This document shows positions 4,365-59,239 of a stretch of DNA of 64,000 bases, piece by piece. The DNA is from Tubulanus polymorphus (taxonomy: Eukaryota > Nemertea > Palaeonemertea > Tubulaniformes > Tubulanidae): NCBI RefSeq assembly GCF_964204645.1, contig NC_134036.1, positions 1,240,001 through 1,304,000 of the forward strand, read 5' to 3'. Made by a program: the position numbers and the translations under genes. The notes under the pieces were generated by a model. That model searched no databases. It worked only from the letters and a program-made list of their open reading frames with translations, and was not told the DNA's origin. Every line of letters begins with the position of its first letter. The stretch's first letter is position 1.

Positions 4365-4719
4365 CTACGCTCACAGCTATAACTCATTACTCTCCTTTCG
4401 CACGATCAGTTACACCTTGTAATTAATTACGAAGCCTTGGACTGAGTCCACGTTACTGTTGTAGATTTATATTTAAGTCTGTGTTGTTGCTGTTGACGCT
4501 TGTGTATTTGAAGAAAGTAATCACCAGGGAAGGAGAGGGAGAGTGTTATATAAATGTCGTTTGGTTGAATTTATAAGTGGTCTTTGATTAACAGCGTTAT
4601 CGCGTATCTCACACGTTACGTAGCTTTCTATTGTTTGAGTGAGGCAAACGAATCGAATATATTAGTTTCTTATTTCGTGTAAGAGCCTCGGTCCCGACCG
4701 CTTTTGGAAAGTGTATGTG

Positions 4720-5905
4720 TTGGAGTGGATGGTAACTTTCTGAATGCATGGATTGATGTGCTTCAGTGCATGCCATCTTCTGGATTGATTGGCTAATTTC
4801 GGAATCCTTGCATTGATGTGCTTGAGTGCTTGGCAACTTTTGGATTGCACGGCAACTTTTGGAATGCATGGATTGATGTGCTTGGTTGCATATGGTATCT
4901 TTCGGAAATGTTTGAGTGCATGGCAATTTTCGGAATTGCTTGATTGCATGGCAACTCTTTGGATGCTTACATTAATGTGCTTGAGTGCATAGCAACTTTT
5001 GAAATTGCTTGTGTGCTTGGCAACTTTTGGATTGCACGGCAACTTTTGGAACGCATGGATCGATGTGCTTGATTGAATGGCATCTTCCGAAAATGTTTGA
5101 TTGCATGGCAACGCTTGGAATTGCATGAGTGCATAGAAACATTTGGAATTGTTTGAGTGCATGGCAACTTTTGGAACGCAAAAATGATGTGTTTGATTGC
5201 ATGGCAGCTTTTGGAATGCTTGCATTGATGTGCTCGATGGCATGGCATCTTTCGGGATTGCTTGAGTGCATGGCACCTTTTGGAACGCATGGCAACTTTT
5301 GACATGCTTGCATTGATGTGCTTGATTGCAGGGCAACTTTTGGAATTGCTTGAGTACATAGCAACTTTCGGAATTGTTTGATTGCATGGCAACTTTTGGA
5401 ATGCTTGCATTGATGTGCTCGATGGCATGGCAACTTTCTGAACTGTTTGTTTGCATGGCATCTTTTGGAATGCATGAATTGATGAATGCTTGATTGCATG
5501 GCAACTTTTGGGGTGTATGGCAACTTTTGGAATGCATGAATTGATAAAGGTTTGATTGCATGGCATCTTTCCGAATTGCTTGAATGCATGGCAACTTTTT
5601 GAATGCTTGCATTGCAATTTACATGTTTGCGAGGTAATGCTTGTTTGATTGCATGGCAACTTTTGGAATGTATGAATTGATAAATGTTTGATTGCATGGC
5701 AACTTTTGGAGTGTATGGCAACTTTTGAAATGTATGAATTGATGAATGTTTGATTGCATGGAAACTTTTGGAGTGTATGCCAACTTTTGGAATGCATGAA
5801 TTGATAAAGGTTTGATTGCATGGCATCTTTCCGAATTGCTTGAATGCATGGCAACTTTTTGAATGCTTGCATTGCAATTTACATGTTTGCGAGGTAATGC
5901 TTTGA
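4720..5905. repeat. Satellite array on the phrase GCATGGCAACTTTTGGAATG
   Basis: The phrase GCATGGCAACTTTTGGAATG and close variants recur every 28-45 bp for about 1.2 kb, alternating with TTGATTGCAT, TTGATGTGCTTGA and GAATTGATAAATG linkers. A higher-order duplication is visible: 5521-5642 is identical to 5781-5902 at a 260-bp offset. Several minus-strand frames of 100-316 codons stay open at once and differ in frame between sub-blocks. That is expected of stop-poor repeats rather than a protein. Confidence 0.9.
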
Positions 5906-6652
5906 GTTTGTATGTTTATGTGCTTAGTATTTTTTTTTCCAAATCATAGACTTAGTGTGTGCGGTATCTTTCTAAGATAGGGAAAAAGAAAATTTCTGTT
6001 TATGTTTTGATTCAGAACACGTTGAAATTGTCTTTCTTGGCCTGACATCCATTAACTGCTGTTTGAAACGTGTTAATTACCGATTCTAGAAATAATATCC
6101 GCGTCAACACACCGAGTTACACAGACCGACTGAGTGGAGACAGTGAGTGGAAACGTAGTGAGGAAACAGAGTGTGGATAGTAAACCGTGCCGTTACCTTA
6201 GTGAAAGCCACTCACCGGGCTTCATTAGTATCAACAACAAGAATTATCAATTTTACCCGATTATACTGAAGAAAGCTTATCACTGTATTTCAAGGTTTTC
6301 AATTAGATTTTACTGAATATTTTCCCTGAGATTTGCGATAGCGATTATCTGATATTTTTGATAATATGCATGTAAATCAAGGTCACTCGATAATGATAAT
6401 ATCGATAGAATAGAAAGATGGAAAATTATGAAATATTGTTTTAAGATAAAATTCCGGACAAACCTGTGAGGTAAGGCTTAAAGGACAAGCTCATATTCAT
6501 ACTGATATTTTGAACACATATTTGATAACTATGATAACGTTGGGTTGGAGTCATCCCTTTAAGTAGCAAGTTTTTTTTTATAAGTGTGACTCGAGCCCTT
6601 AGGTATAGAACTTAACCAGCGACTTGTTGAATAGTATATTCAATATTTGTTT
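5906..6652. other. Intergenic, nothing recognised
   Basis: Unique-looking AT-rich sequence between the satellite and the piggyBac insertion. A 60-codon plus-strand frame at 6134 has no recognisable features. Confidence 0.5.
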
Positions 6653-6888: not shown

Positions 6889-8701
6889 TCAATTTCTAAC
6901 ATGATACTCTTTGTAACAATTTCTGCGCTCATTGAAGCATAGGGGAATGTTACATTTTTCACATATGGTATCGGTCTTCAAACTGCAGATAGGGCAGCGA
7001 CCCCGTTTTTCTGCTTTCTGTGGCCAATGGGCTAATTGATCGTATCTTCCATCTAAGCTAGGTTTGATGCGTACCATCTTCGCAGGTACAGGGGAAGGAT
7101 CACCAGCAGTAGATGGCCGACCACGCTTCCTTCGCATTCCAACTTCAACTAAGCCATGTGCGATTTCTGCTTGAAACTGCCTAAGCCTGAGAATAGACTT
7201 TTCCGGTGTGTTATGCAATCTGGAGTCACGTTTATAAAGTAACCAGGCATTTATGACCGCAACACTGACAAAATGCCAGAATAAAATAGTATACCACCTA
7301 CGGGTTCGAAACCTAAATTTACTGTGTGCTAAATAGGCATCTAAAATATCAACCCCTCCCATAAAAGAATTATATTCCTTCACAAGAAACGGCCTATTGA
7401 CATCACGAAAATCATTCCTGGCTTTGTCCCACCTACGAGCTGCCTCAATAGGCTCAATACTGGAACAGGTTGTAATAAATGTTACAGACTTTGTGTCTTG
7501 CCAGCGTAGACACATCACTTTCTCAGTATTCTCCACACGAAAACTATGACTTCCACGCCCCTTCGCTTTCAATTCTTTCTCGGAAGGCAAAGGGCAATTG
7601 CCAAGTCTATTTGCCCTTGCTGTACCGGTGTAATAAAACCCAGAAGTCAGGAGTTTTGTAGCCAGTTGTACAGAGGAGAACAAATTATCTGCAAAAATTT
7701 TATATCCACAATTTTTTGACAAGGTTTCACACAGTTTCATCACAATGTTACCAGCTATACCGAGTTTCTGATCATAATCATCACCTTTCTCAGCGCCTTT
7801 CCCTTGATATACCTCAAAATCATAACAGAAACCACTGTTGTCACACCTACACCAGATTTTAAACCCCCAAGGGTGTGGTTTATTTTTGATATATTGCCTC
7901 ATACCACTGAACTTGCCCTTATAGGGCACCATTTGCTCATCAATCGATAGCTGCTGGGGAGGAGTAACCAGACGGCAACGATCCCTAAACATATTTATCA
8001 ATGGACGAAGCTTCCACAGCTTGTCCTTCTTATCATCATCGCACACGGCATTGTTATCTACAAAGTGAATATATGCAATCAAATTTAAAAACCGATTCCT
8101 GGGCATAACATCGGACACTTGGGGATAACGGATGTAGGTGTCCCAGTACATACGGACACTGTTCATTTGAACTAAGCCCATACGCATATAAATCCCAAGT
8201 AAAAGTTCGATTTCCTTCTCATTAGATACATCTACCAGCTCCTATTTTCTGAGAGCTATACAAGTTTGTATTGTCTACAATCAATTTTATCATGTCCGAA
8301 GTGAAAAAGCGACGAAAATACTCTAACGGAGTTTCAGTTACTCCTGTTGGATCTGTCGGTTCAATATTTGTCCCAGTAAAGTTCACAACAGGTACAACAA
8401 AATTAGACTTTGACCAAATATACCGCCGATTTATACCCTGACCAACGCCAGCCATCTGAGCCAATGGAATGTCATCATCAGAATCAAAGCCTTCACTTTC
8501 ATTTTCATCGCCTGGAAATTCATCGTCATCGCTTTGTTGTGAAGCAGCAGGTTGCATGTCTTCATCGTTGTAATCATCGGGGTCTGGGAATTCATCATCA
8601 TCATCATCATCACTCTGTTCATCATCCCCAATATCACTGTCATCCGCTGTAACCGCATCAATTATTTGGTTCAGACTCATACATTTACGAGGACGTTCCA
8701 T
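6889..8701 (-). pseudogene. piggyBac transposase (DDE_Tnp_1_7 type), one frameshift
   Basis: Cuts and pastes the surrounding transposon at TTAA. The N-terminal part (8701 to about 8225) begins at an ATG in good context (ACAATGG; MERPRKC). It has the long acidic stretch usual for the family and the segment TPLEYFRRFFTSDMIKLIV. The frame ends in TAA at 8222. The rest continues in the next frame from about 8241 to the stop at 6889, so a one-base indel lies within 8222-8241. The catalytic aspartates are all visible: SIDEQ (D83 of the second block), FADNLF (D167) and GGVDILD (D280/D283). Their spacing is close to that of the insect enzyme. The C-terminal cysteine-rich domain (CPIC, CEKC, then further Cys/His) is present. 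The break is either a true recent mutation or a sequencing error. An acceptor-like TTATTTTTCAG at about 8740 could mark a 5'UTR intron. Confidence 0.9.
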
Positions 8702-9253
8702 TGTATTTGATGTCGATGACAATGGATGTCAGAATCTGAAAAATAAGATCAGTAATTTAATCATAAATGTTCTCTGATAATGCTGAAATTCATTTAAGTT
8801 AGATGATTTATTGATACAAACCCTTGGAAGAAAATCGTGAATAAATTTATAAAAATTTTTATTTTCATATCACCATGACTAAGGTTGACATTTCATCCCA
8901 GTGGGTCACATATGACCCCACCAAAAAGCACCGGTTTGTTTGAACACACGGATATGTAAATCAGAACTGTCACTGTTGCTAGACATTCTTTATAATTTAT
9001 TTTTTCGAATTATCACTTGTAAATAAGCTTTACATACCTTATTTGAGTATAAATTGTCGAACACAAACTGGCCTGACCATCCAATTTTCAATTCATGGGC
9101 GCAGCCATTTTGTAATGAACAAAGTTGTTACAAGATGTCGCCACAATCTTGTTACCATTGGGTCATATGTGGAACATCGGGTTGTAGGTTCAGTAAAAAT
9201 AGTAAAATGAATGGAAAATTAACATCTCAAGTTCCCAGGGGTACCCAAATGAG

Positions 9254-12860: not shown

Positions 12861-13091
12861 TCACAAATTCGTATCGACTGCTGAAGTAGGAGGTGTCTCG
12901 CCCCCCAAGTTAACACCGCCACCTGCACTGACACCGCCACCTGCACTGACACCGCCACCTGCACTGACACTGGCGCCCAAGTTGACACTGCCGCCTGCAG
13001 AGCCGCCTTGTTGTTTTTTCTTGAAAATAGCCTTCAATTTATCGCTCAATTTAGACCCTGTGCTCGAGTTCGACCCACGACGTTCTGAATC
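12861..13091 (-). CDS. Coding exon 5 (terminal) of the AHNAK-like gene
   Basis: Begins after the acceptor TTTATTTCAG in phase 0, matching the phase-0 donor of exon 4. Its 76 residues start DSERRGSNSSTGSKLSDKL and KAIFKKKQQGG. Three or four Gly-rich VSAGGG units (18-bp period) follow, then NLGGETPPTSAVDTNL and a TGA at 12861-12863. It repeats the basic amphipathic motif one last time (KLSDKLKAIFKKK). No domain recognised. Confidence 0.75.
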   Translation of the reverse strand, partial: DSERRGSNSSTGSKLSDKLKAIFKKKQQGGSAGGSVNLGASVSAGGGVSAGGGVSAGGGVNLGGETPPTSAVDTNL

Positions 13092-16000
13092 CTGAAATAA
13101 ATACCGAAATAATGAAACAAATTTAGAACTAGGCAAAATTTCAAAAACAATACCGAAATTACTCAAAATGATAAAAAATAATATTGAAATGACAATTCTA
13201 AAAAATCTTTCGAAATAAATTGACGGTTGATAAAGTTTTTTTTTTCAAAATTAAATCAACACGCAAAAGTCGATTGTGTGGAGTGGGTGTAATTGGCTTT
13301 ACCTCGTTAAATAGATCAGAGACACCTGGCGGACTCAACGTGAACCCTTCCGTCACCGAACTCGATCTCCGTACGGCTGTGTTACTCTCGGTCTCGGTCA
13401 CCGTCGCTGTCTTCCCATCATCAGCGCCACCTAGGCGGCCATCTTGTTCTGTATCGATTCCGATCCCTTCTGGTATAGAAATCGATCGATTCACTCCGGG
13501 TATTCCCAGTTTATACGTTTTCGAGCGATGTTTATTTTTTCCCACCGTCGAGGTAGCCGAGAGCGAAGCCCCGGCCTCTAATCCGTCGACCATCGATTTC
13601 GACCTCTTGATTTTCATCCCTTTTAACTTAGCGATTAACCCCCCTCGATGTTTCCTGCCTTTTCCCGCTGATATTCCGTCCATCATTGACTGTGATCGGT
13701 TGATATGGACGCCTTTGTTGCCTTCAGTATCCAGGGTAACGGCTCCGCCGAGGAAGCTTCCCCCAGCGGCGCCACCTATTGGTATATCATCGACAAGCGA
13801 TTGGGACCGGTTTAAATGTATGCCCTTCACTTTTTTGAATATGTTTGGTTTTTTCGACGTGTTCGAGGGAATATCGTCCGGACTAGTACCACCGCTGGTG
13901 CTGCCATCTGTCAGCGGTGATTGAGGACGCTTCGTTTTCGAACCCTTGATTTTGGCCATTAGGGCGGCGCCACCGGTGCGTTTTTTGCTCGGTTTCAATT
14001 TTAAGTCTGGTGTGGATATCGACACGTCTTGCCCGGATAACTTATCGATTTTCGACCCTTGTTGAAGGTCTGTAGGCGACTGTGTCGAAACCGCAAATTT
14101 CGGTAACTTGACGTCGCCATGGAGATCATGGCTCGTCAGATTATCGTCGTTCTCTCTATCGCCGTCAGATGTCGCTGTATTACCCTTCACTTTAAATAGC
14201 TTTTTCGTTTCGAGCTTGAAATCGTGAAACTTTTCTTTAAATCCCTTTTTCTTCTTCCTACGTTTTTTGTTACTGCTACTCGCCGCTGGGGCGGCGTCCA
14301 TGTCGATAGCACATGCGCCACCAACCGGATTGGCCCAGTTCTGAGCGTATCTATCTTTTAAATCAGCGTTCAAATCCGTTGGACCGTTCAGCGTAGCGTC
14401 GTTTACACCAGCACTGGCAGTTAAACCGAGGTTAACTCCAACTCCTGGTGTTTCTTTCACTGTCAGGTTATCGCCGCTGTTCTCGCTGCTGACGATACTA
14501 TCAGCGTCCAGATCGGTCGTTTGTATTCCGGAGAACTTATTCTTTAGTACCGTCTTCAGATCCAAGGAGGCGCCACCGTCAGCACCACCGACACCGGCGG
14601 CGGTTTTCAATTTTCCGAACGGATTTTCGAAAAACCATTTTTCGTTTTTGATCACGGTGTTGACCGAGTCCGAGTCCTCGGCCGTATCGCTGCCGTTGTC
14701 CGGGTAGATTTCCAGTTGAGCCCGTTCCTCTTCGAATTCACCGTTCGAATCGTCGTCCAGTAAATTCGTCATGCTCTCCGACAGGCGAGATTTATCGTCG
14801 ATTTGCTCCTCCAGTGATTTCTCCATCGTCACCTCTCCTGCGCCTCCTGTCTTCAGTTTGATATCCGCGGTCAGAGCTTTCAATCCGTCCCGGAAGAAAG
14901 TCTTCGTCGTGTCCAGTTTGTCGCTGATTCCTTTCATTTTGTCTTTTAGCGCGAAAGTTTTGTCGCCACCGTCGACACTTTCAAATTCCAGCTCGTCAAC
15001 GTCTTTGATTGTTGCCGTTTTCAATTGTGGAACAGCAACATTTGGGGATTTGACATCGCTATCAACTGTTCCCACATCTGGAGTTTTCAAATTAACTTTT
15101 CCCAACTCTGGAAGTTTCACGCCGATTTTTCCTAAATCTGGTTTTCTGACATCTACTTTTCTCGAATCAGCTTTTGCGAATTTTGGCAACTTAACATCAA
15201 CATTTCCCAATGCTGGGTCGACTCCTGCAATGTCCGGCTCACCGATAACGGAATCAGTAACATCTAATCCGTCGATACTAGTGTCAACGTCCATTTCTAC
15301 ATTACTCGGCACCGTGCCAACTTGAATTCGTGGAGTTTCGAGATTTGGAAGGCCTTTGGTTTCCAGATCCCCAATATCGCTGTTTATATTCAGATTATCG
15401 CCTGCGCTTAGTTCAAACGGCAATTCTAACTCCATTCGAGCGATTTCCGGTGCTGGGCATGTGACCTTCGCCTTTTCGGTCACATCCAGTTTAGATTCAA
15501 ACTGATCTCCAGCTCGCGTCGATTCCAACATTTGCAAGGCGTCTACCGAAGCCGGTAGTTTCAGATCCTCTTCGCTAGGTGTCGCCACAGCCTTGACCAT
15601 ACTGAATCGATCAACCATACGACCCCAGATCGTCTGCGTGTCTCTGGAAGGTGATTTCGCCCGGATTTGTTCCGTTGCCTCCACCGTTTCGGGAGTTATT
15701 TCTCCCATGTCGTCGAAAGTCGGATCGTTATCGGATAACCTTCTCAGACGATCGTTCAGTTTGTTTTTCCACGAGACTAGCGATTCGTTTTTATCCCGAT
15801 TGTTGACTCGCAGGTCGAACTTACCGCCAGTAGCGCCATCTACACCGATGTAACCGGTGGCGGCGCGTGGTGGCTGAATATTTAGGAATCCGGAACTTTG
15901 CGTGAAATCTTCCTCATCGTCTCCGAACACGTTATCAGATATATCTATCTCAGGTGGTGATATGATCGAGTCGAATTTTCCGACATTTTCGAAATTCATA

Positions 16001-19000
16001 TCGTCATCAGTTTCAATATTGATGTTTGGAATATTTTCTGTAATCGATTTCGAGTTAGCTCGTAGATCAAGTTCCCCGCTTGGTATTTGGACATCAGGAG
16101 GGATAATATCTTTCCCCAATCCTGTAGTAGTTCTGAGATCCAGTTTCCCAAAACTGGGAACTTGGACACCAGGTTGGATATTGTCTGTACCAAATCCTGA
16201 AGTTGCTCCGAGATCCAGTTTACCACTGGGAACTTGGACACCAGGTGGGATAATGTCTGTACCCAAACCTGAAGTTGCTCCGAGATCCAGTTTACCAAAA
16301 CTGGGAACTTGGACACCAGGTGGGATATTGTCTGTACCAAATCCTGTAGTTGCTCTGAGATCCAGTTTACCACTGGGAACTTGGACACCAGGTGGGATAT
16401 TGTCTGTACCCAAACTTGATGTTGCTCTGAGATCCAGTTTACCACTGGAAACTTGGACACCAGGTGGGATAATGTCTGTACCCAAACTTGAAGCTGCTCT
16501 GGGATCCAGTTTACCACTGGAAACTTGGACATCAGGTGGGATATTGTCTGTACCAAATCCTGAAGTTGCTCTGAGATCCAGTTTACCACTGGGAACTTGG
16601 ACACCAGGTGGGATATCGTCTGTACCCAAACTTGAAGTTGTTCTGGGATCCAGTTTACCACTGGGAACTTGGACACCAGGTGGGATATTGTCTGTACCAA
16701 ATCCTGAAGTTGCTCTGAGATCCAGTTTACCACTGGGAACTTGGACACCAGGTGGGATATTGTCTGTACCCAAACCTGTAGTTGCTCTGAGATCCAGTTT
16801 ACCACTGGGAACTTGGACACCAGGTGGGATAATGTCTTTCCCCAATCCTGTAGTAGTTCTGAGATCCAGTTTACCAAAACTGGGAACTTGGACACCAGGT
16901 GGGATATTGTCTGTACCCAAACTTGAAGTTGCTCTGGGATCCAGTTTACCACTGGGAACTTGGACATCAGGTGAGATGATGGCTGTACCCATTCCTGATG
17001 TAGCCCTGAGGTCTAGTTTACCAACAGGAAATTCGCCAACTTCCCCAGACACATTAACATCGGGTATTTCCACATTTCCGAATATGTCTCCTATGTCAGT
17101 GTTCATCGTCCCACTCGGAAAATCGATTCCAAAACCTTTTGAAATAACATTCTTGGCTTTATCTTGTATCTTGTTGTTCGCAGCAATTCCTGCATTGCCA
17201 TCGGTTCCTGGTAAACTAACGTTTAGCGCAACACTGTTCAATTTGCCCGGCTCATCAACATCCGACCTGCTGTCCGATCCGTCGTCCAGATCTGAACTCT
17301 TATTCCCTCGTTTCTGCTTACGGTGCCTTCTCGGGGACAAACCTTTGAAGCCGCCTTTTAGTTTATCAATGAAACCAGTCTTTTTCGTGAAACTCGCATC
17401 CATCGTGTCATTAGCGACGTCTGGTGACTGGATTTGTAACGAAGGCACGTCAGCCGTACCGTCAATGTTTACGTTAGGTGTTCGGACGTCAAGGGAAGGT
17501 GCATCGGCATCGAACGAAATGATATTGTTGTCACCAGATATTTTGATACTTTTTTGGGGAACATTTGGCCTAACGTTAGCTAGCCCATCATCCAATCCAC
17601 CACATAAATCGATGTTGTCTGACATACTGGTTTGACTTAGTCGGATGTCCTCTATATCAAAGAACTGATTAGCGTCGACTGAACCTGTAATTTTATCAGG
17701 TATATTCATGTCGACTGTCTGATTAGGGTTGGTCGTATCGATGTCGGCTTCCACGTCAATCCCAAGAGAGTGTCGGCCTATGTCAGGTAGTCCTACCTGT
17801 GGCATCTTTGTTGGAGCATTAGGAGTTTGAAAGTTATCGGATGATTCGATTGCCACCGCTTTCAATTCACCAGGACCCCCCACGTAGAAAGCTTCTACAG
17901 AGTTCATCGGTTTGGCGTCCAGGTTCGCCGCATCTGGCAGGTTTACGTCGGCGAGTTGGTTTTGTAACTTTGTCTGTTTAGCACTGACGCCAACAGCTGG
18001 AGTATCCACATCATCAGCTCCCTCTATTGCAGCCATTCTCAATTCACCATGGCCTCCTACGTAAAACGCTTCGGCAGGATTCATCGGTTTAGCTTCCATT
18101 TGAGCAGCATGTTGCGGATTCGGATCCACGAGATGTTTTTGTAACTCTGCATTTCTAACATCGATTTCTACATTAGGAGCATCAAAACCGACAGAGGCAC
18201 CAACTGGCGGGGAATCCTTGTCATTATTTTTGTTCCACTCGTCCTCGAATTTCGATATCGTTCGATCTTTGAAATCTTTGATCTTATCCAGAAATCCCAA
18301 CTTTTTCGAACCGCCGCCGCTAGACGTCACTGCAGCCGTGTTCGCCGGGACATCCACGGCGGGGATTTCGACTTTAGGAGTACTGGTACGCGGGAATCCA
18401 GCATCGGGAAAATCGGCACTAACGGGTGAACTGTTAGCGAGTACGTTCTGTTCGAAGTCGATACGTTCGGAGAATCCGGAGTCTCTCATCTGCTCGACGT
18501 CATCGTCCAAATTTCCAGAATCGTCTAAATTCACTTTGACCTTTCGACCTCGTACGTCATCAGACCCGTCAATTTTTAATTTAGGAAACGCCATTTTAAC
18601 TTTATCAACGTCATCAGGATCGAAGTCGCCGACAACATTCACATCAGGTGAACTCATCACTGAATCTGGTCCGGTCTGTTTTCCGTATTCCGTAGAATCC
18701 GGGCCGACCTGTATTCCGTATTCGGCCTCCAACGACGCCTGGTATTCGCCTAGAAGTTTCTCATCGTCACTTGCATCATCCTTTCCTTCATCCTTTTCCG
18801 TCGACCATCTCGGCATCCGGGAAGTTATGCTGTCCAAATTTCTTTGAAATGCGGCCGGAATTCCGGAGATTCCCGAGCGATTCGTGTTGACGTCGGCAAT
18901 TTCCGGTAACGAACTGAAGTTCTGAGCCACCTCAACACGTCTGCTGGCCGCGAGTCCGCCGGTATCTCCCCGTAGATTTAAACCCACTCCGCTCACGTCG

Positions 19001-21584
19001 CTTTCCACTGAATACGTACCGAAATGATCCTCAACGTCGACCGACCCGACATCAGGTGTGGTCGGCACCTCGTTATCGGTGTCTGAGTAACCCGATACAT
19101 CATCGACGCCGTTTAGAACACCATCGTCTGCGCATGCTTGGAAAATGTTTTCCATGGCGACGGCCTTTTTCACGAGCCCTGTAAAAAAACAAGCAACGAC
19201 CGTTTTAGGAAGTGTAGTTCACTGATTGCAAGCCGCCCTTTAGAAAATGAATTTTGAACAATCTTTTTTCTTGAAAATTGAAACTAGATCAAGCGTTGAC
19301 ATTGTATTTGGTGTATGGGGCGCCCCCTTATGGTGTAATTCGTAAGCACGTTTGTTAAGGAATACATACTTGGTCGTTCGTGGTCTTTGTCCTCGTCGCA
19401 TTCCGAATCGGAAGTTCCCACGTAGTTGTTATCGTCGTATCGCGAATCTATGTCCGGTGCCGATTCCGTGGCCGCACCCGAGTTTTTGCGGACCATTTCC
19501 TCGAAAACCTCTTCATCATCGTCAACACCATCGATTTCGCTATCGGTTACAAACTCCGGCAATTCGATATCGTCATCATCATCTTCATCATACGAGAAAT
19601 CGTCGAACGTAATCGAGTAGTCTCCGTCGTCGTCGCCAGATGTCACTGCTTCCAGCGTATCGTCGTCCGATTGGTCGAACGCAGGTTGACCCAATTCTAA
19701 TTGGTTCACGGTTTCTAAATTGATCACGTGTTCGCCGTCTGCGTCGCTGACTGTGATGTTCAGAAAATCGTCGTCATTCGGATCAACCTCTGCTGTTGTT
19801 TGTATCTTCTGCTGTTGTTGCTGTTCAGTTGTCTGAACGTCGTCTTTACTGAATAGACCTGTGTCGAATATCAAATATTCGATCATTTCATACGTGTAAA
19901 TCGTTAGATTTTCGAATTTCGTCTAATGCCATAAGACTTTCGACATAACTTTTCATCATTCATAATTTTGGAGATTTCTAAGTTTTGTTCAAATAATTTA
20001 AGGAATCCAAATTTAGATAAATTTTTCATTAAAATTTTTGAAATTTGAAATCAACTGCTTCTCCTTTTTTTTACCTTTGAATTTTCCGAACAGACCGATG
20101 TCGCTATTGTTCCGTGTTAGCGTCGGCTCAGATTGGGCTGTCGTCGTTGCCGGGGTTACTTCGATTAGCGACCTTCTTTTCTCATTGTTGGACGACGTTT
20201 CCGGGAACTTGGGAATTTTCAGATCCACGTCGGTTTTCAGGTCTTCGTTTGAATCTTTGAAGCGAAAAATTCCTGGAAAAGAATCGTATGAAATTCAATA
20301 ATCTAGAAAATTCGTTGCTTGGAAAACAATTTACTTCAGCTTTGGATTTATTTCATTAAATTTTTTGTATGGCGAATTGAGAATGAGCTAAGACTGTTTA
20401 ACATATTGGTATCGAATCAATAGGACTAGGCTTAGTTTGGTCTTGTGATTGAGGGTGGTCGCAACTGGTGTTTTAGCACTGGATGTAATATGCTTAGCCT
20501 GGTCGGGTTATCAGGCCCAACTTTGAAGTTTGCTTCACCATCTGGGTCTATATCAACAAACCTAATAAATAATCTGACGAAAAAAATTGGCCCATTTCGT
20601 CCTCTAAAGTAAGATGATATTCTACCTTTAAACTTGTCGAAAATTCCAACTTCGTCATCGCTATTAGCATCAGTGGCGACACCTGGTTGTATTTCGCTGA
20701 AGCTCGAATAACGTGTTCTATCAGTTGCTGCGTCCGGTGTTGCAGTTGCTATAGTTTCACGCTTATCCATCCCCACAGCATCCGTATCATCCTCAGTAAC
20801 CACTGTAACATCCACCTCAGCTGCCAGAGTTGGTTTGTTAGTTTTATCGACGATATTGATTGGTTGTTTCTCGTCCACGTTGTTTTTATCGTCTGTCGCG
20901 TTTTTCAGCAGTTGTTTGTTTGAAAGTCCGGTAAAATTAAAAAATCGATCAATTAAATCTGGATCTTTGCCCCCCTCAACGTTCTCCTCATTTTTATCGT
21001 CATTATTATCCGTCACTACGGCAACAACGTTATCGGTATTGTTGATAACGCTGTTGCCGGTTGACCTCTCTCTTCCACCGCTTCTGATTGCTAGGTCCAT
21101 CGGTTCCAGCTTCCCAATCTCTTGCGGCTGCTTAGCAACGCCGTCTGGTTGCTGGGCAACCTCTTTCGGATTCGCAGCAACCGTATCTGGCTGTTTGACA
21201 ACCTCTTGTGGTTGCTTAGGGACCTCTTGCTCTTTGTTGCCACCGAATACCCCTCGTAACCGGTTGAATAGCCCGCCAGATGGCGCTGCTGCTGCTGCTG
21301 ACGATTCGGGCAGCTTGCCTTCGATGGATATTTCTGGCTTCTCGTATTCGATTCCGACATCGATTCGCTTCGGGCATTCCTCGCTTGCCGGTGCTGGTTT
21401 CGATGGTAGCGACGCCTGTTGGATGATAACGTCGTCCTGGTTCGGCTTCTGGTCTCGCGATTTCTTGAAAATGTTCGGAATGATTTTAAAGATGGCGCCC
21501 TCCTCCTCGTCGTCGTCGTCATGGTGATGATCATTGTCAGTGTTTTTGTAAGTGGGGAAAACCGAAAAGGTTTTGTCCATTGTC
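12861..21584 (-). CDS. Giant acidic repeat protein, AHNAK/periaxin-like (gene model, five coding exons)
   Basis: Proposed join, 5' to 3' on the minus strand: 21580-20626, 20272-20075, 19858-19370, 19178-13303, 13091-12861. Every junction has GT donor and pyrimidine-tract AG acceptor. The phases fit (1-1, 1-1, 1-1, 0-0) and the total is 7749 nt, exactly 2582 codons plus stop. The product is acidic and low in complexity. It has beta-like segments of alternating V/L/K/D/P (VDVKLPKF, GVKLPELGKVNLKTPDV) reminiscent of AHNAK and periaxin, a 13-copy 24-residue repeat and a (K/R)RSQS-rich tail. A basic amphipathic motif of the form GhFxKhKG recurs through all exons. No PDZ domain, signal peptide or membrane segment is visible. 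AHNAK-family proteins are scaffolds at membrane and cytoskeleton; here that function is inference from composition only. Confidence 0.78.
13303..19178 (-). CDS. Coding exon 4 of the AHNAK-like gene (giant 5.9-kb exon)
   Basis: The exon runs from the acceptor TTTTTTTACAG to the donor AACGAG/GTAAAG, 5876 nt, residues 548-2506, uninterrupted. In order: an acidic start (AMENIFQACADDG) and FLDKIKDFKDRTISKFED. Two copies of a segment built on AKPMNxxEAFYVGGxGEL follow (near 18090 and 17930), then FIDKLKGGFKGLSPRRHRK and 13 tandem 24-residue units (residues ~1267-1581). After these come AHNAK-like VKLPKF/VNLKTPDV stretches (~15070-15210), KDKMKGISDKL and a Lys/Arg cluster KKRRKKKKGFKEKFHDFK that could act as a nuclear signal. 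Three diverged tail modules follow (AKIKGSKTKRPQS, KKVKGIHLNRSQS, AKLKGMKIKRSKS), resembling phosphorylation sites. The 72-bp period also keeps other frames and the opposite strand open for hundreds of codons; those are shadows. Confidence 0.88.
16078..17022 (-). repeat. Coding minisatellite: 13 units of 24-25 codons in exon 4
   Basis: Consensus unit GKLDLRATSGLGTDNIPPGV followed by QVPS. Three units have an extra Phe, which explains the 945-nt total (13 x 72 + 9). Units differ at a few positions (R/G, S/T, G/S, F/L, N/I/D), and a degenerate fourteenth unit (GELDLRANSKS) follows to about 16006. High nucleotide similarity between units implies recent unequal exchange or conversion. Confidence 0.92.
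19370..19858 (-). CDS. Coding exon 3 of the AHNAK-like gene (symmetric 1-1, very acidic)
   Basis: 489 nt between the acceptor TATTCGACACAG and the donor CCAA/GTATGT. It encodes residues 385-547: LFSKDDVQTTEQQQQQK followed by a long Asp/Glu-rich segment (FDDFSYDEDDDDDIELPEF, DGVDDDEEVFEEM), ending DSECDEDKDHERP. Phase 1 on both sides, and therefore a cassette-type exon. No domain recognised; it is probably disordered. Confidence 0.75.
20075..20272 (-). CDS. Coding exon 2 of the AHNAK-like gene (symmetric 1-1)
   Basis: 198 nt between the acceptor TTTTCCAG and the donor AAAG/GTAAAA. It encodes residues 319-384: IFRFKDSNEDLKTDVDLKIP at the start, RRSLIEVTP and LTRNNSDIG in the middle, GLFGKFK at the end. 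The length is divisible by three and both borders are phase 1, so it could be skipped or duplicated without changing frame. It begins and ends with the same basic amphipathic motif as exon 1. Confidence 0.68.
20626..21584 (-). CDS. Coding exon 1 of the AHNAK-like gene
   Basis: Starts after the acceptor TATATTTTCAG, so the first four bases (GACA) are 5'UTR. The ATG is at 21580-21578 in good context (ACAATGG). It encodes residues 1-318: MDKTFSVFPTYKN, an acidic His/Asp/Glu run, IFKIIPNIFKKSRDQK, a poly-Ala stretch, GGLFNRLRGVFGGNK and a Gln/Pro/Val-rich stretch of KQPQEV-type repeats. LIDRFFNFTGLSNKQLL follows, and finally GIFDKFKG at the donor AAAG/GTAGAA. Reading through the donor gives about 60 residues of unrelated sequence before a stop, which supports splicing there. 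The exon ends in phase 1, as do the next two. Confidence 0.75.
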
Positions 21585-26112: not shown

Positions 26113-26202
26113 GATCTGTAGTTCCCTTGTTATGTTACATCTGGGTGTCCGGTCTTGGTGCGTCTACCTAACTATTGTAGGGTTTGACAAAAAAGATTGC
26201 CT

Positions 26203-26275
26203 TGGAGAACCCGGGCATCGATCCCGGTACCTCTCGCATGCTAAGCGAGCGCTCTACCATCTGAGCTAGTTCCCC
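26203..26275 (-). tRNA. tRNA-Ala (anticodon AGC)
   Basis: 73 nt folding into a full cloverleaf: acceptor GGGGAAC/GTTCTCC with the G3:U70 pair that defines alanine tRNAs, D-arm TAGCTCAGATGG (A box), anticodon stem CTCGC/GCGAG with loop TTAGCAT, T-arm CCGGG/CCCGG with loop ATCGATG, discriminator A. No intron, and CCA is not encoded. A T6 Pol III terminator follows on the minus strand (plus-strand A-run near 26190-26195). First of a pair with the UGC gene. Confidence 0.97.
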
Positions 26276-26350
26276 TGTCATAACATCGCCTGGTAGTCAC
26301 AAGTTTGTCTGTCCTCACTAAATGTTGGGGTTTGAACAAAACAATTTGTA

Positions 26351-26423
26351 TGGAGAACCCGGGCATCGATCCCGGTACCTCTCGCATGCAAAGCGAGCGC
26401 TCTACCATCTGAGCTAGTTCCCC
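26351..26423 (-). tRNA. tRNA-Ala (anticodon TGC)
   Basis: Identical to the AGC gene except for the anticodon loop TTTGCAT, giving anticodon UGC. G3:U70 present; 73 nt; a short T4 terminator follows (plus-strand AAAA near 26337-26340). Its start is 148 nt from that of the AGC gene. A conserved flank (TCACTAAATGTYGGGTTTG) precedes each copy on the plus strand, showing that the duplicated unit includes the trailer. Confidence 0.97.
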
Positions 26424-26675
26424 TGTTGGCATTGACCGCCGTGACGCGTGTCTGGGTACTGATGACCGCATTTAGGGAATAGAACGCATTCTAAGATCTC
26501 GTGTGGCCTGGAACTACCTACGTATTTCCATCAGCTTTTAATGGAAGTGCTGATAACGAAATATCTCAGGTGAAGCACTGAACACAATATGTAAAGTGTT
26601 GACGATCATGGAAGAAATATCGATTATCCCTAGTAGGTTTAGACTGCAGACCCTAGTCTGTTAAAATTTATATTC

Positions 26676-29100: not shown

Positions 29101-29732
29101 TTCACACTTGGACACAGAGACTGAATAGGGTCGTGGGGCATCACTTGTGGATCTTGGCAAATCATTGAGATCCACCCACCAATGTAACAGATATCACTGA
29201 CAATCTACAGACATACTGCTCCAACAGACAGAAGCTTCCATCAATCACATGGCATTGAAAGCTAGAGATACCTTGAGAGATGCACATCAACACGGCTACT
29301 GCAGATAACGGCCATTAATTCACGCGTACAATATTTATATATGTACATGTACATATTTATGGCTCTTAGGAAAGACATTGTTGCATAAAATATAGATTGG
29401 ATACAAATAAAACGTATTAATGGAGATAGATTTACGGTCGGACAATGGAGGGCAATAAACGAATATTATAATCAAACGTATATTTCAACTCCTGGTTTAT
29501 TTAACAGTGCAGTAAACCTTGCCTTACCGGGACGTTGCCAATTCTGACCTGCGACACTACAACTGGGGCGCAGACAACTTTGACATGACATGTGTGACGA
29601 TAACTGGGGAATGTACAATTCTGACCTGTGTCACTACGACTGGGACCAAAAGTACAATTTTCTGATAACAATTGTCTGTAGTTTCACCTTGATCTGTCCT
29701 CACTGAATGTCGGGTTTGACAAAAAGAATAAT

Positions 29733-29805
29733 TGGAGAACCCGGGCATCGATCCCGGTACCTCTCGCATGCTAAGCGAGCGCTCTACCATCTGAGCTAGT
29801 TCCCC
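29733..29805 (-). tRNA. tRNA-Ala (anticodon AGC), second pair
   Basis: The sequence is identical over 73 nt to the gene at 26203-26275, with G3:U70 and intact A and B boxes. A T5 terminator follows on the minus strand (plus-strand A-run near 29721-29725). The flank TCCTCACTGAATGTCGGGTT shows shared ancestry with the 26.3 kb pair. Confidence 0.97.
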
Positions 29806-29884
29806 AGACATACTATGACCATGTTTTCTCACGCGGGCCTGTTCTCACTAAATGTCGGGTTTGGCGAAAAAGAATCTAAAGCTA

Positions 29885-29957
29885 TGGAGAACCCGGGCAT
29901 CGATCCCGGTACCTCTCGCATGCAAAGCGAGCGCTCTACCATCTGAGCTAGTTCCCC
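29885..29957 (-). tRNA. tRNA-Ala (anticodon TGC), second pair
   Basis: Identical to the gene at 26351-26423. Its start is 152 nt from that of its AGC partner. A T5 run follows on the minus strand within the conserved trailer. The AGC/UGC order is the same as in the first pair, so the pair moved or duplicated as one unit. Confidence 0.97.
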
Positions 29958-31574
29958 TGTCCATACACTGACTAGTGTGACGTGTCTCGAAAATATAAAC
30001 TAAATGATTTTCTGATTTTCAAATTAATTTTGTGATCCATGGCAGTTTAACGAACTTTCCTATTGTCGTCAGACCGATCTTGCTGCGCTTCCTGCAGTTT
30101 GACCGAGTATCGGTGTTGCGGGGTCATAATAGCTGGGACATAACATTTCTACAAATCAAAATAATGCCCAGTCGATTCTACTGAGGCATTGAAATAATTG
30201 TAGAAATCAAATGTCAAATCTGGTGTCTTTTTTGGGGACACACATTCTCGAGAGAAATAGTAAAAAAACTTCTTCTTCTGGCGCCAGTTACTTTCCAATC
30301 AATAACCGATAAATTCCCACCGATTTCGAAGAATCGCGTCGCGCTCATTCAACAATACGCGTCGGTTATATTTCCGTAGTAACACAGTAACGATATACAA
30401 CGACTATTTAAATCATATCGATAACGATATTTCTGATATTTCCGGCTGATTAAATATCTGATATTTCACGTCTGCCGTTTCAGCCGTTTGAGCGCCGTCA
30501 AAGACAATACGTGCGCGACGCATTACTGTTTCTCGGTATTCCGCCGCGGGGCCTTCTCACTGCGCTGTACTCACGCTCCGCAGCGCATTAATACATTATT
30601 AGTCCGTCTGAAATGTGATAAATGTTTCGATCGTTGATACGAGCGAGATTAAACGAGATTTAACGACAATTGACGAGACACGACAATTATGTACCTATTT
30701 AAATGAAGTATATTTACAAAGCACACGAATTTCTTCCGGTTTCGATGCCCGTTTCCGTTTTCGAAGCTGTAGTCGCCATCTTGAAACGGAAACGCCACCA
30801 TCTTGAAAAAATTACTAAATTTGATTTAAAAACATGATTTGAAGTGGTTTTTGTTGCGCTGCTTTTTTGTGCACATTGTATTTCGAAGGGGGCGCCACCT
30901 GTAAATAATTACACAATTCACAAAACGATACCAACAAGGTTTACATTTTTTTGGCACTAAATTCTTAAAGCTTCATTCGTAATTTGGCAACAAATGAGGG
31001 GAACACTATTATAGGCAATGTCACGTGGTATCGATCGGTTTTATTTCGCGGACGTCATCCATTTTTTTTCTCTCCCCACATCCGGTTTTGATTATAGGTG
31101 GGTTGGATTCCGGCATCTCAATCCGGATGTGGAACATCCGTTTTTTAGTGAAATCCCATACAATTATCATCGGTACTTGGTGATTTACGTCTCACGGTTA
31201 CGAAGTGTCACATTAATTTTCTCGACTCCGAGATCAAAGCGTTCTTCGACTCTGCGCGGGTATTAAAGTTACGAAGCGTAAATTTGAAACCATTTGACGG
31301 GTCTCCGGTGACTAGTAGACGATCTTTCAGACCTTAAAAAGATTATCAGGAATTTTTGATATGAATACAAGAGGAGTCGCCTTACCTGCAGAGACTGTTA
31401 GAATGATAGTACAGAGTATGGTGTCCATGTATGATCAGATTCAGGAACATCTTCAGCATTGACTGTTTATCCGGAACAGGCACTCAAATCGAAGAATTGA
31501 ACCGAGGGAGGGTTGGGGCGGGGACGGGGAGTTCATTACCGCGAGTGATAGTTAACTTTCAGATGGACTTGTCC
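29958..31574. other. Intergenic; small hairpin, no gene
   Basis: Plus-strand frames at 30615 and 31018 show nothing recognisable. An inverted repeat CCACATCCGG (31076-31085) / CCGGATGTGG (31123-31132) is present; GGAT/ATCC words here resemble ETS-type cores. Confidence 0.45.
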
Positions 31575-56053: not shown

Positions 56054-56059
56054 TTTATT
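56054..56059 (-). promoter_or_regulatory. Polyadenylation signal AATAAA overlapping the stop codon
   Basis: Minus strand ...ACACAATAAACACC: the codons CAA TAA spell AATAAA across the stop. If used, the 3'UTR would be only about 15-30 nt. Confidence 0.6.
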
Positions 56060-58853
56060 GTGTTCCAGTGAGTACAGTGTTTATATTATAAACTCGCAGT
56101 GAGTCCGTTTTATTACTGTTATCCCAGTGACGGATAACTACAGTGTTACTGTCACACACTTTGTGTATTTCACCTGTATCACTGTCTGCAGAGTTCAATA
56201 CTATGCGCGGGTGATCTATAAACCCCTCATCATTATATCTCATACTAATCACGGCTCCTTTGTTACCAGTCCCACAGTTTACCGATAGTAATACATGGTT
56301 ATCATTGATAACACATGGCTGTCCCACAAGTGGGTTAATTGTTAGTCCGGAATCTTTCACATTGATAGAACTGACCAGTTCCGCATCAGCTGTTAGATAG
56401 AGTAATCTTTCTGATCTATCACAGTATACAAACATGCGTCCCCGTGCGTCGACATCGAAACTGTTGATATAATCATACTCTCCATCCGGGAGCTGATATG
56501 TCTTCACACGGTCTCTATCAATTAAACTGTTTACAGGGTTTTCTAGTAAACGTAAAACACGAACGTCTCTACTTGACTGAATGTAAATATTGTGACCGCG
56601 AATGACTAGTGTTCCACACCCAGACACAATATCAGTGACATCTTCCTCTAACACTTTGTCCTGATCTTTATATTTTCTCAGGAAGAGTTTCTCGTTTTTC
56701 TCCACGACTACAAACAGGTGACCGTTACTATCTGTATCGAGTCCTAGTAAACAATCATCACCATCACACTCTATATATCTCTTCATTACATTATTATCAT
56801 CCATGTAATATATATCACTGCACTCCCATCCCGCACATATTATACGTGACTGTTGACCCGTCTGCTCACCAGGTAATGACGTCACTAGGTTAGGTGAGAA
56901 GTCTGTCTGAACCTGTTTACTGATCGTTAATGAATCAATGACGTCACCAATGAAACTCTCCACTTCATCCATTCTCCATATGACGTCACCAATAGATATC
57001 TCCAATTTATCTATTCTCCCTTTGACATCATTGATTGTTCTTCCTGTGACGTCATCGATAGTCTTATTCAGTTTTACTTCCAATGCTTCAAGTTGTTGTT
57101 CAGTACAGCACCGGTTCAGCCTCTCTTCAAGTTGTTGTTCAGTACAGCACCGGTTCAGCCTCTCTTCAAGTTGCTGTTCAGTACAGCACCGGTTCAGCCT
57201 CTCTTCAAGTTGTTGTCCAGTACAGAACCGGTTCAGCCTGTCTTCAAGTTGTTGTTCAGTACAGAACCGGTTCAGCCTCTCTTCAAGTTGTTGTTCAGTA
57301 CAGCACCGGTTCAGCCTCTCTTTAAGTTGTTGTTCAGTACAGCATTGGTTCAGCCTCTCTTCAAGTTGTTGTTCCGTACAGCACCGGTTCAGCCTCTCTT
57401 CAAGTTGTTGTTCAGTACAGCATTGGTTCAGCCTCTCTTCAAGTTGTTGTTCCGTACAGCACCGGTTCAGCCTCTCTTCAAGTTGTTGTTCAGTGCAGAA
57501 CTGGTTCAGCCTCTCTTCAAGTTGTTGTTCAGTACAGCATTGGTTCAGCCTCTCTTCAAGTTGTTGTTCAGTACAGCACCGGTTCAGCCTCTCTTCAAGT
57601 TGTTGTCCAGTACAGAACCGGTTCAGCCTGTCTTCAAGTTGTTGTTCAGTACAGCACCGGTTCAGCCTCTCTTCAAGTTGTTGTTCAGTACACCATTGGT
57701 TCAGCCTCTCTTCAAGTTGTTGTCCAGTACAGCACCGGTTCAGCCTCTCTTCAAGTTGTTGTTCAGTACAGCATTGGTTCAGCCTCTCTTCAAGTTGTTG
57801 TTCCGTACAGCACCGGTTCAGCCTCTCTTCAAGTTGTTGTTCAGTGCAGAACTGGTTCAGCCTCTCTTCAAGTTGTTGTTCAGTACAGCATTGGTTCAGC
57901 CTCTCTTCAAGTTGTTGTTCAGTACAGCACCGGTTCAGCCTCTCTTCAAGTTGTTGTCCAGTACAGAACCGGTTCAGCCTGTCTTCAAGTTGTTGTTCAG
58001 TACAGCACCGGTTCAGCCTCTCTTCAAGTTGTTGTTCAGTACAGCACCGGTTCAGCCTCTCTTCAAGTTGTTGTTCAGTACAGCACCGGTTCAGCCTCTC
58101 TTCAAGTTGTTGTTCAGTACAGCATTGGTTCAGCCTCTCTTCAAGTTGTTGTTCAGTACAGAACCGGTTCAGCCTCTCTTCAAGTTGTTGTTCAGTACAG
58201 CATTGGTTCAGCCTCTCTTCAAGTTGTTGTTCAGTACAGAACCGGTTCAGCCTCTCTTCAAGTTGTTGTTCAGTACAGCACCGGTTCAGCCTCTCTTCAA
58301 GTTGTTGTTCAGTACAGCATTGGTTCAGCCTCTCTTCAAGTTGTTGTTCAGTACAGAACCGGTTCAGCCACTCTTCAAGTTGTTGTTCAGTACAGAATCG
58401 GTTCAGCCTCTCCTCAAGTTGTTGTTCAGTACAGAACCGGTTCAGCCTCTCTTCAAGTTGTTGTTCAGTACAGAACCGGTTCAGCCTCTCTTCAACTGTG
58501 TCTATAGTGCGCTTCAATTGAGAGAATTGATTTTCTAAATTATCATGAAACAGTTTAACATTGTCAATTAGAGAATTAAGACGTTGATCAATGTCTGGTT
58601 GAACTGTTCGCGCTTCACTGATCGGTACAGTGTTAACTCTAAACACGTATTCGTTCCCGTGACGACTAGCACCGATCACAAGACCTGAACCTATTGATTG
58701 CGGAGATTGTTGAAGTCGTGATTTGTAGATTTCACACATTTCTTTAATTTCACATTTAACGATAAACACGTGATTCTGAGGTTGATGATTGAACGGGATC
58801 GGATGATTCGGTATCTCCACACCAGAGGGCGCATCTCTCCATTCTAATTTCAC
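56055..58853 (-). CDS. Exon 2 of the repeat-rod/propeller gene
   Basis: Starts after TATTTCAG with VKLEWRDAPSGVEIP (in frame with exon 1) and runs without intron to the TAA at 56057-56055. It carries the rest of the N-terminal region, the 36-unit repeat, a coil (LEVKLNKTIDDVTGRTINDV) and the propeller-like C-terminus ending in NTVLTGTQ. The plus-strand frames of 481 and 527 codons opposite the repeats are shadows: a 39-bp unit without stops keeps every frame open. Confidence 0.88.
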   Translation of the reverse strand: MKLEWRDAPSGVEIPNHPIPFNHQPQNHVFIVKCEIKEMCEIYKSRLQQSPQSIGSGLVIGASRHGNEYVFRVNTVPISEARTVQPDIDQRLNSLIDNVKLFHDNLENQFSQLKRTIDTVEERLNRFCTEQQLEERLNRFCTEQQLEERLNRFCTEQQLEEWLNRFCTEQQLEERLNQCCTEQQLEERLNRCCTEQQLEERLNRFCTEQQLEERLNQCCTEQQLEERLNRFCTEQQLEERLNQCCTEQQLEERLNRCCTEQQLEERLNRCCTEQQLEERLNRCCTEQQLEDRLNRFCTGQQLEERLNRCCTEQQLEERLNQCCTEQQLEERLNQFCTEQQLEERLNRCCTEQQLEERLNQCCTEQQLEERLNRCCTGQQLEERLNQWCTEQQLEERLNRCCTEQQLEDRLNRFCTGQQLEERLNRCCTEQQLEERLNQCCTEQQLEERLNQFCTEQQLEERLNRCCTEQQLEERLNQCCTEQQLEERLNRCCTEQQLEERLNQCCTEQQLKERLNRCCTEQQLEERLNRFCTEQQLEDRLNRFCTGQQLEERLNRCCTEQQLEERLNRCCTEQQLEERLNRCCTEQQLEALEVKLNKTIDDVTGRTINDVKGRIDKLEISIGDVIWRMDEVESFIGDVIDSLTISKQVQTDFSPNLVTSLPGEQTGQQSRIICAGWECSDIYYMDDNNVMKRYIECDGDDCLLGLDTDSNGHLFVVVEKNEKLFLRKYKDQDKVLEEDVTDIVSGCGTLVIRGHNIYIQSSRDVRVLRLLENPVNSLIDRDRVKTYQLPDGEYDYINSFDVDARGRMFVYCDRSERLLYLTADAELVSSINVKDSGLTINPLVGQPCVINDNHVLLSVNCGTGNKGAVISMRYNDEGFIDHPRIVLNSADSDTGEIHKVCDSNTVVIRHWDNSNKTDSLRVYNINTVLTGTQ

Positions 58854-59239
58854 CTGAAATAGAAAACGACATTTTTATTTGACTCTCACCTCGAAGTGGT
58901 CACCCGTCTAGTATCACACGCGCATGATGATGAAACAAGATGAGAATTACAGATTCTTACCTCATCAAACGGCATCATCTGCACCGCTATTACGTGACCT
59001 GTATAGATGGTTTTTAGTTCGTGTTTAATAGCAGCCTCTAATTCTTCACACCACAGAGTTATATCAAGTTGTAATATATTTCCATCCGCAGTTATTCGAT
59101 CAGATTCCAAATTAAACAACGGCTGATAAAAGTAATTTTGTATCGTTCTGTACTCATTATCCTGATCGGACCAAACGGTAACGCGACGTCCTTTGAAAGG
59201 TACGGAAATCTCGAAACGATCCGGATTACTTGTAGCCAT
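56055..59239 (-). CDS. Repeat-rod protein with NHL-like propeller (gene model, two exons, 1025 aa)
   Basis: Join on the minus strand: 59239-58961 and 58853-56055. The donor is GATGAG/GTAAGA and the acceptor TTTTCTATTTCAG, both phase 0, giving 93 + 932 residues. Layout: a ~210-residue N-terminal region of mixed alpha/beta look with no domain I recognise, then 36 tandem 13-residue repeats (residues ~214-681), a helical linker and a C-terminal ~270-residue part. That last part has NHL-like strand patterns (GLDTDSNGHLFVVVEKNE, SFDVDARGRMFVYCDRSE) expected of a beta-propeller. The order helical rod plus propeller resembles TRIM-NHL proteins, but no RING or B-box is present. No signal peptide or membrane segment; probably cytosolic. 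Function unknown. Confidence 0.85.
57090..58493 (-). repeat. 36 tandem 39-bp units coding LEERLNRCCTEQQ
   Basis: Exactly 1404 nt = 36 x 39. The unit is EERLN(R/Q)(C/F/W)CT(E/G)QQL. Nearly all units are the same except at the R/Q and C/F positions. The variant EDRLNRFCTGQQL marks units 14, 23 and 33, and the order of variants in units 13-19 recurs in 22-28. This shows a nine-unit (351-bp) higher-order repeat. The unit is predicted helical, with Leu at two positions and Cys-Cys or Phe-Cys on the same face. Confidence 0.95.
58961..59239 (-). CDS. Exon 1 of the repeat-rod/propeller gene
   Basis: ATG at 59239-59237 in good context (AACATGG). Encodes 93 residues, MATSNPDRFEISVPFKGRRV through VIAVQMMPFDE, and ends at GAG/GTAAGA. 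Reading on through the donor gives about 24 unrelated residues before a stop. Confidence 0.8.

Follow-up and report, generated by a model that had tools for sequence, protein, structure and literature searches.

A basic amphipathic motif of the form GhFxKhKG is confirmed as real, and as far above chance, in a 2,582-residue protein encoded on the minus strand (21580..12861) of the window, i.e. the whole 64,000-nucleotide stretch of Tubulanus polymorphus DNA that was analysed. The odds appear about even that this protein is a single-copy giant disordered scaffold which docks by about nine basic amphipathic helices, most likely to anionic membrane.

The exon joins of the gene were predicted from the sequence. 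Joined in this way, the five exons form an uninterrupted frame of 2,582 codons. All four predicted introns (353, 216, 191 and 211 nt) are of the GT-AG type, and the GC content was 0.47-0.54 in exons versus 0.26-0.38 in introns. The open reading, the intron borders and the GC contrast bear out the five exons, the coordinates and the protein length given in a preliminary description of the sequence. That description had counted three internal junctions, all in phase 1, but there are four, with phases 1, 1, 1 and 0 (the last being GAG/GTAAAG; here and below a slash within a sequence marks the splice junction). In exon 3 the net charge reaches -36 over residues 401-500. As an acceptor-like TATTTTCAG lies four bases before the ATG, a 5' UTR exon is probably located upstream.

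Positions of the gene's exons, repeats and selected helices in the window
Feature	Position	Strand	Remarks
Exon 1	20626..21580	-	318 codons + 1 base; helices AIFKIIPNIFKK (residue 29) and GLFNRLRGVFGG (103), start of GIFDKFK/G (312)
Exon 2	20075..20272	-	198 nt, phase 1-1; (G)IFRFKD ... DLKIPKF ... GLFGKFK
Exon 3	19370..19858	-	489 nt, phase 1-1; (G)LFSKDD, followed by a strongly acidic stretch
Exon 4	13303..19178	-	giant, 5,876 nt; bulk of the protein
Exon 5	12861..13091	-	helix KLSDKLKAIFKK (residue 2520), Gly/Ser-rich tail, stop
Helix GFLDKIKDFKDR	18262..18297	-	residue 842
Helix GFIDKLKGGFKG	17341..17376	-	residue 1149
24-residue tandem array	16045..17019	-	about 13 copies of (S)GKLDLRATSGLGTDNIPPGVQVP, residues ~1268-1592
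ALKDKMKGISDKL... and following helix	14767..15033	-	residues 1930-2018; sole long-helix stretch in AlphaFold, pLDDT up to 68
C-terminal composite repeats	13477..13998	-	hhxKhKG-hxhxRSxS[LM]hDG; residues ~2275-2448

Four further features were recorded elsewhere in the window: (i) a piggyBac-type transposase (DDE_Tnp_1_7, E 1e-75) at 6889-8728 on the minus strand, in two overlapping frames of 450 and 168 aa; (ii) a satellite-like array at 4662-5943, based on TTGATTGCATGGCAACTTTTGGAATGC and with several higher-order periods; (iii) two tRNA-Ala pairs (AGC and TGC) at 26202-26493 and 29732-30027, about 3.4 kb apart and likely a local duplication; (iv) a 939-aa frame at 56055-58874 on the minus strand in which a 13-residue repeat resembling EERLNRCCTEQQL occurs ~36 times (39-nt units of 93% identity) and whose match to the Pfam Galaxin-like repeats (E 1e-26) is possibly an effect of Cys-pair composition.

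The motif peptides listed in the preliminary description were found in the protein, and the comparison with shuffled proteins that it had proposed was run and showed the motif to be far commoner than in the shuffles. The pattern hh.[KR]h[KR]G was observed seven times versus 0.04 expected, and none of 3,000 local composition-preserving shuffles reached seven; GhhxbhbG was observed five times versus 0.00 expected from local shuffles. Unbiased enumeration of reduced-alphabet patterns (lengths 6 to 8, tandem array removed, 60 shuffles) placed h.bhbG, h..bhbG and hh.bhbG at the top, with z values of about 11-12 compared to 6.5-8.2 for the best shuffle. A held-out profile trained only on the three copies of exons 1 and 2 recovered five windows with scores of at least 15 in exons 3-5 (GFIDKLKGGFKG, KLSDKLKAIFKK, NIFKKVKGIHLN, GLIAKLKGMKIK and ALKDKMKGISDK) versus 0.34 expected, and zero windows in four further long ORFs taken from this genome. 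The copies themselves diverge, with a mean column identity (A1) of 44%.

With respect to helix formation, two classes of copies can be distinguished: about nine are clearly amphipathic helices, and three near the C-terminus are part of another repeat. For nine 12-mers (residues 29, 103, 312, 378, 842, 1149, 1684, 1957 and 2520) the helical moment at 100 degrees was 0.50-0.71, compared to a protein mean of 0.23; their net charge was +1 to +4, and the moment was lower at 160 degrees. The C-terminal copies 2286 and 2394 formed no amphipathic helix and copy 2326 a weak one, and all three were left as coil by AlphaFold. AlphaFold was run on single sequences, without an alignment, for exon 1 and for residues 1930-2506, and confidence was low (mean pLDDT 43 and 40.5, respectively). 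Helices were predicted near residues 105-108, 207-214, 221-229, 1954-1991, 2000-2018 and 2088-2093, mostly at motif or motif-like sites; at residue 29 the models show no helix, and at 103 hardly any. Up to about residue 2200 the chain is net acidic. Transmembrane segments are absent, with 19-residue hydropathy peaking at 1.05, and in these models the chain looks mostly disordered outside the helices. The earlier picture of a single class of docking helices on a disordered acidic chain holds as a property of the sequence for the nine amphipathic copies, but it does not extend to copies 2286, 2326 and 2394.

The element h-x-[KN]RSxS[LM]hDG of the C-terminal composite repeats recurs at 2338, 2375 and 2406 (looser forms: 2298, 2445, 2485) and is preceded by the C-terminal motif copies. 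A 60-residue duplication (AKPMNxxEAFYVGGxGEL; 17821-18180 on the minus strand, residues 881-1000) is well conserved (score 153) and differs from the remaining chain. An overlapping frame of 338 aa (15996-17012, minus strand) is another frame of the tandem array and stays open because the 72-nt array unit is a multiple of three.

Searches of Pfam and NCBIfam with any of the exons returned zero matches, and PDB gave no sequence match; a PDB profile match to the ADP/ATP carrier (E 0.97) was not significant. In the 268-Mb animal genome this gene alone was found with residues 1-547, 561-1010 and about 1601-2506 as queries, and a weak extra match (E 0.24) was traced to a run of acidic residues in a zinc-finger gene resembling basonuclin. 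The GhFxKhKG DNA pattern, which overlooks CGN arginine and intron-split copies, occurred at 17 places in the genome versus four for a reversed control, two of the 17 being in this gene. Among nine other places read, each carried a solitary motif in a short frame and none was a second multi-copy gene; a longer DNA pattern, with the same blind spots, had zero matches genome-wide.

The preliminary view that no named domain has this form is correct for Pfam and NCBIfam, but two copies closely resemble the K-segment of plant dehydrins. This segment, X-K-X-G-X-X-(D/E)-K-I-K-(D/E)-K-X-P-G, turns helical on anionic vesicles (PMC8961592). Copy 842 together with the preceding KKL fits K-segment positions 1-11 of 15, and copy 1149 fits the core (two core matches versus 0.0045 expected); zero complete K-segments were found in the protein, the K-X-P-G end being absent from every copy. 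Shared with the dehydrins are thus a disordered chain and a number of short, basic, amphipathic helices whose core almost matches, whereas the missing K-X-P-G end, the lack of a Pfam dehydrin match, the animal origin of the gene and the far greater length of its product set the two apart.

If the protein is a membrane-docking scaffold, each of the GhFxKhKGhFxK helices, about nine over 2,500 residues, would make a weak contact, most likely with the anionic inner membrane face, and many such contacts would add up to strong joint binding (avidity). The acidic and proline-strand spacers between the helices would form a tether or cortical coat, and phosphorylation of the C-terminal basic RSxS sites by basophilic kinases might tune attachment or recruit partners. 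We infer the membrane partner, the avidity and the phospho-control; a membrane is favoured as the partner because of charge, amphipathicity, the varying hydrophobic residues and the analogy to dehydrins (PMC8961592).

Several features recall AHNAK, AHNAK2 and periaxin (the desmoyokin group): a giant exon between small ones (here the 5,876-nt exon 4, under the predicted splicing), a disordered chain with proline-spaced V-x-I strands and KIPKF/KLPKF peptides, and a basic C-terminal region bearing RSxS sites. The chain carries P-D-V-x-I / P-[DN]-V-x-[VI] strand units; P[DNEK][VIL].[VIL] was observed 11 times versus 1.39 expected and the DVKLPKF/DLKIPKF class seven times versus 0.11 expected (0/2,000 shuffles in either case). 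These features would suit an invertebrate AHNAK/periaxin relative, that is, a giant-exon, disordered, P-x-V-x-I-rich scaffold of the membrane cortex whose PDZ domain was lost or never present, a descent that we consider rather unlikely. Many GhFxKhKG helices are present in this protein, and we know of none in AHNAK. No PDZ match was obtained within the window or near the gene, the nearest on the contig being at 0.42 Mb and the gene at 1.25-1.26 Mb, in a search that would miss an upstream domain divided among several exons too small to be scored. The PDZ-bearing long frames L015, L016 and L017 code for other PDZ proteins (RGS12- and MPP5-like by eye) and are not AHNAK-like. The array unit comprises 24 residues, as opposed to central repeats of ~128 residues in AHNAK and 165 in AHNAK2 (PMC10682155). 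KIPKF/KLPKF is shared with the S100A10-binding peptide of AHNAK in PDB 4drw/4ftg, which contains MKIPKF, but the genome had no match to the S100 family; phmmer with the DLKIPKF piece as query found nothing, and motifs this short easily converge. A literature search of partial coverage yielded no report on invertebrate AHNAK-like proteins. Because the PDZ domain, the ~128-residue repeats and the S100 partner were not found, the protein was not filed with AHNAK/periaxin. It is assigned to neither the AHNAK nor the dehydrin family and may work like either.

Calmodulin-like proteins are common binding partners of basic amphipathic helices located in disordered chains, and the adjoining RSxS repeats suggest phospho-regulated protein partners. 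It is nevertheless unlikely that the helices bind proteins (calmodulin-type or another folded partner) instead of membranes, given that every hydrophobic site varies among the copies, which is more lipid-like than expected of a shaped pocket. The 24-residue array, the EAFYVGG pair, the C-terminal units and the absence of relatives from the searched libraries would also agree with rapid, lineage-specific evolution of a repeat protein whose motif copies are left over from old internal duplications and have no common docking role. We regard this as decidedly unlikely, as the flanks of two tested copy pairs were shuffle-like while the motif itself was kept, a pattern that speaks for selection acting on the motif or for its repeated gain.

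As originally described, exons 1 and 2 terminate within the motif (AAAG/GT), the spliced junctions reading EVGIFDKFK/GIFRFKD and DIGLFGKFK/GLFSKDD. Under a uniform model, the probability that two of four junctions fall within motif copies is 0.002-0.02. In eight of nine KhKG copies the codons read AA(A/G)GG, and introns would be favoured at the motif because these Lys-Gly codons contain AG/G, the usual proto-splice sequence; judged from the codons, this would be a simpler reason than cassettes for introns within the motif. Shuffling of motif-bounded cassettes, as proposed initially, was not upheld: with the motif excluded, the end of exon 1 resembled exon 2 no more closely than shuffled sequences did (75/1000), and comparison of introns and exon edges revealed no clear DNA similarity. 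Nor did the comparison bear out exon duplication beyond the motif. Since exons 2 and 3 are symmetric (1-1), their skipping would preserve the frame and is possible. That the gene represents a giant-scaffold family of invertebrates not yet described, in which the phase-1 border helices let alternative splicing vary the number of membrane contacts is quite improbable.

Cortical scaffolds of the AHNAK/periaxin type are usually studied in vertebrates. If the helices do dock to membranes, T. polymorphus would have an animal protein that uses multiple weak helices in the style of dehydrins on a chain of AHNAK-like size and build, which would help to ask whether invertebrates possess scaffolds of the AHNAK/periaxin type that function with neither PDZ domains nor S100 partners.
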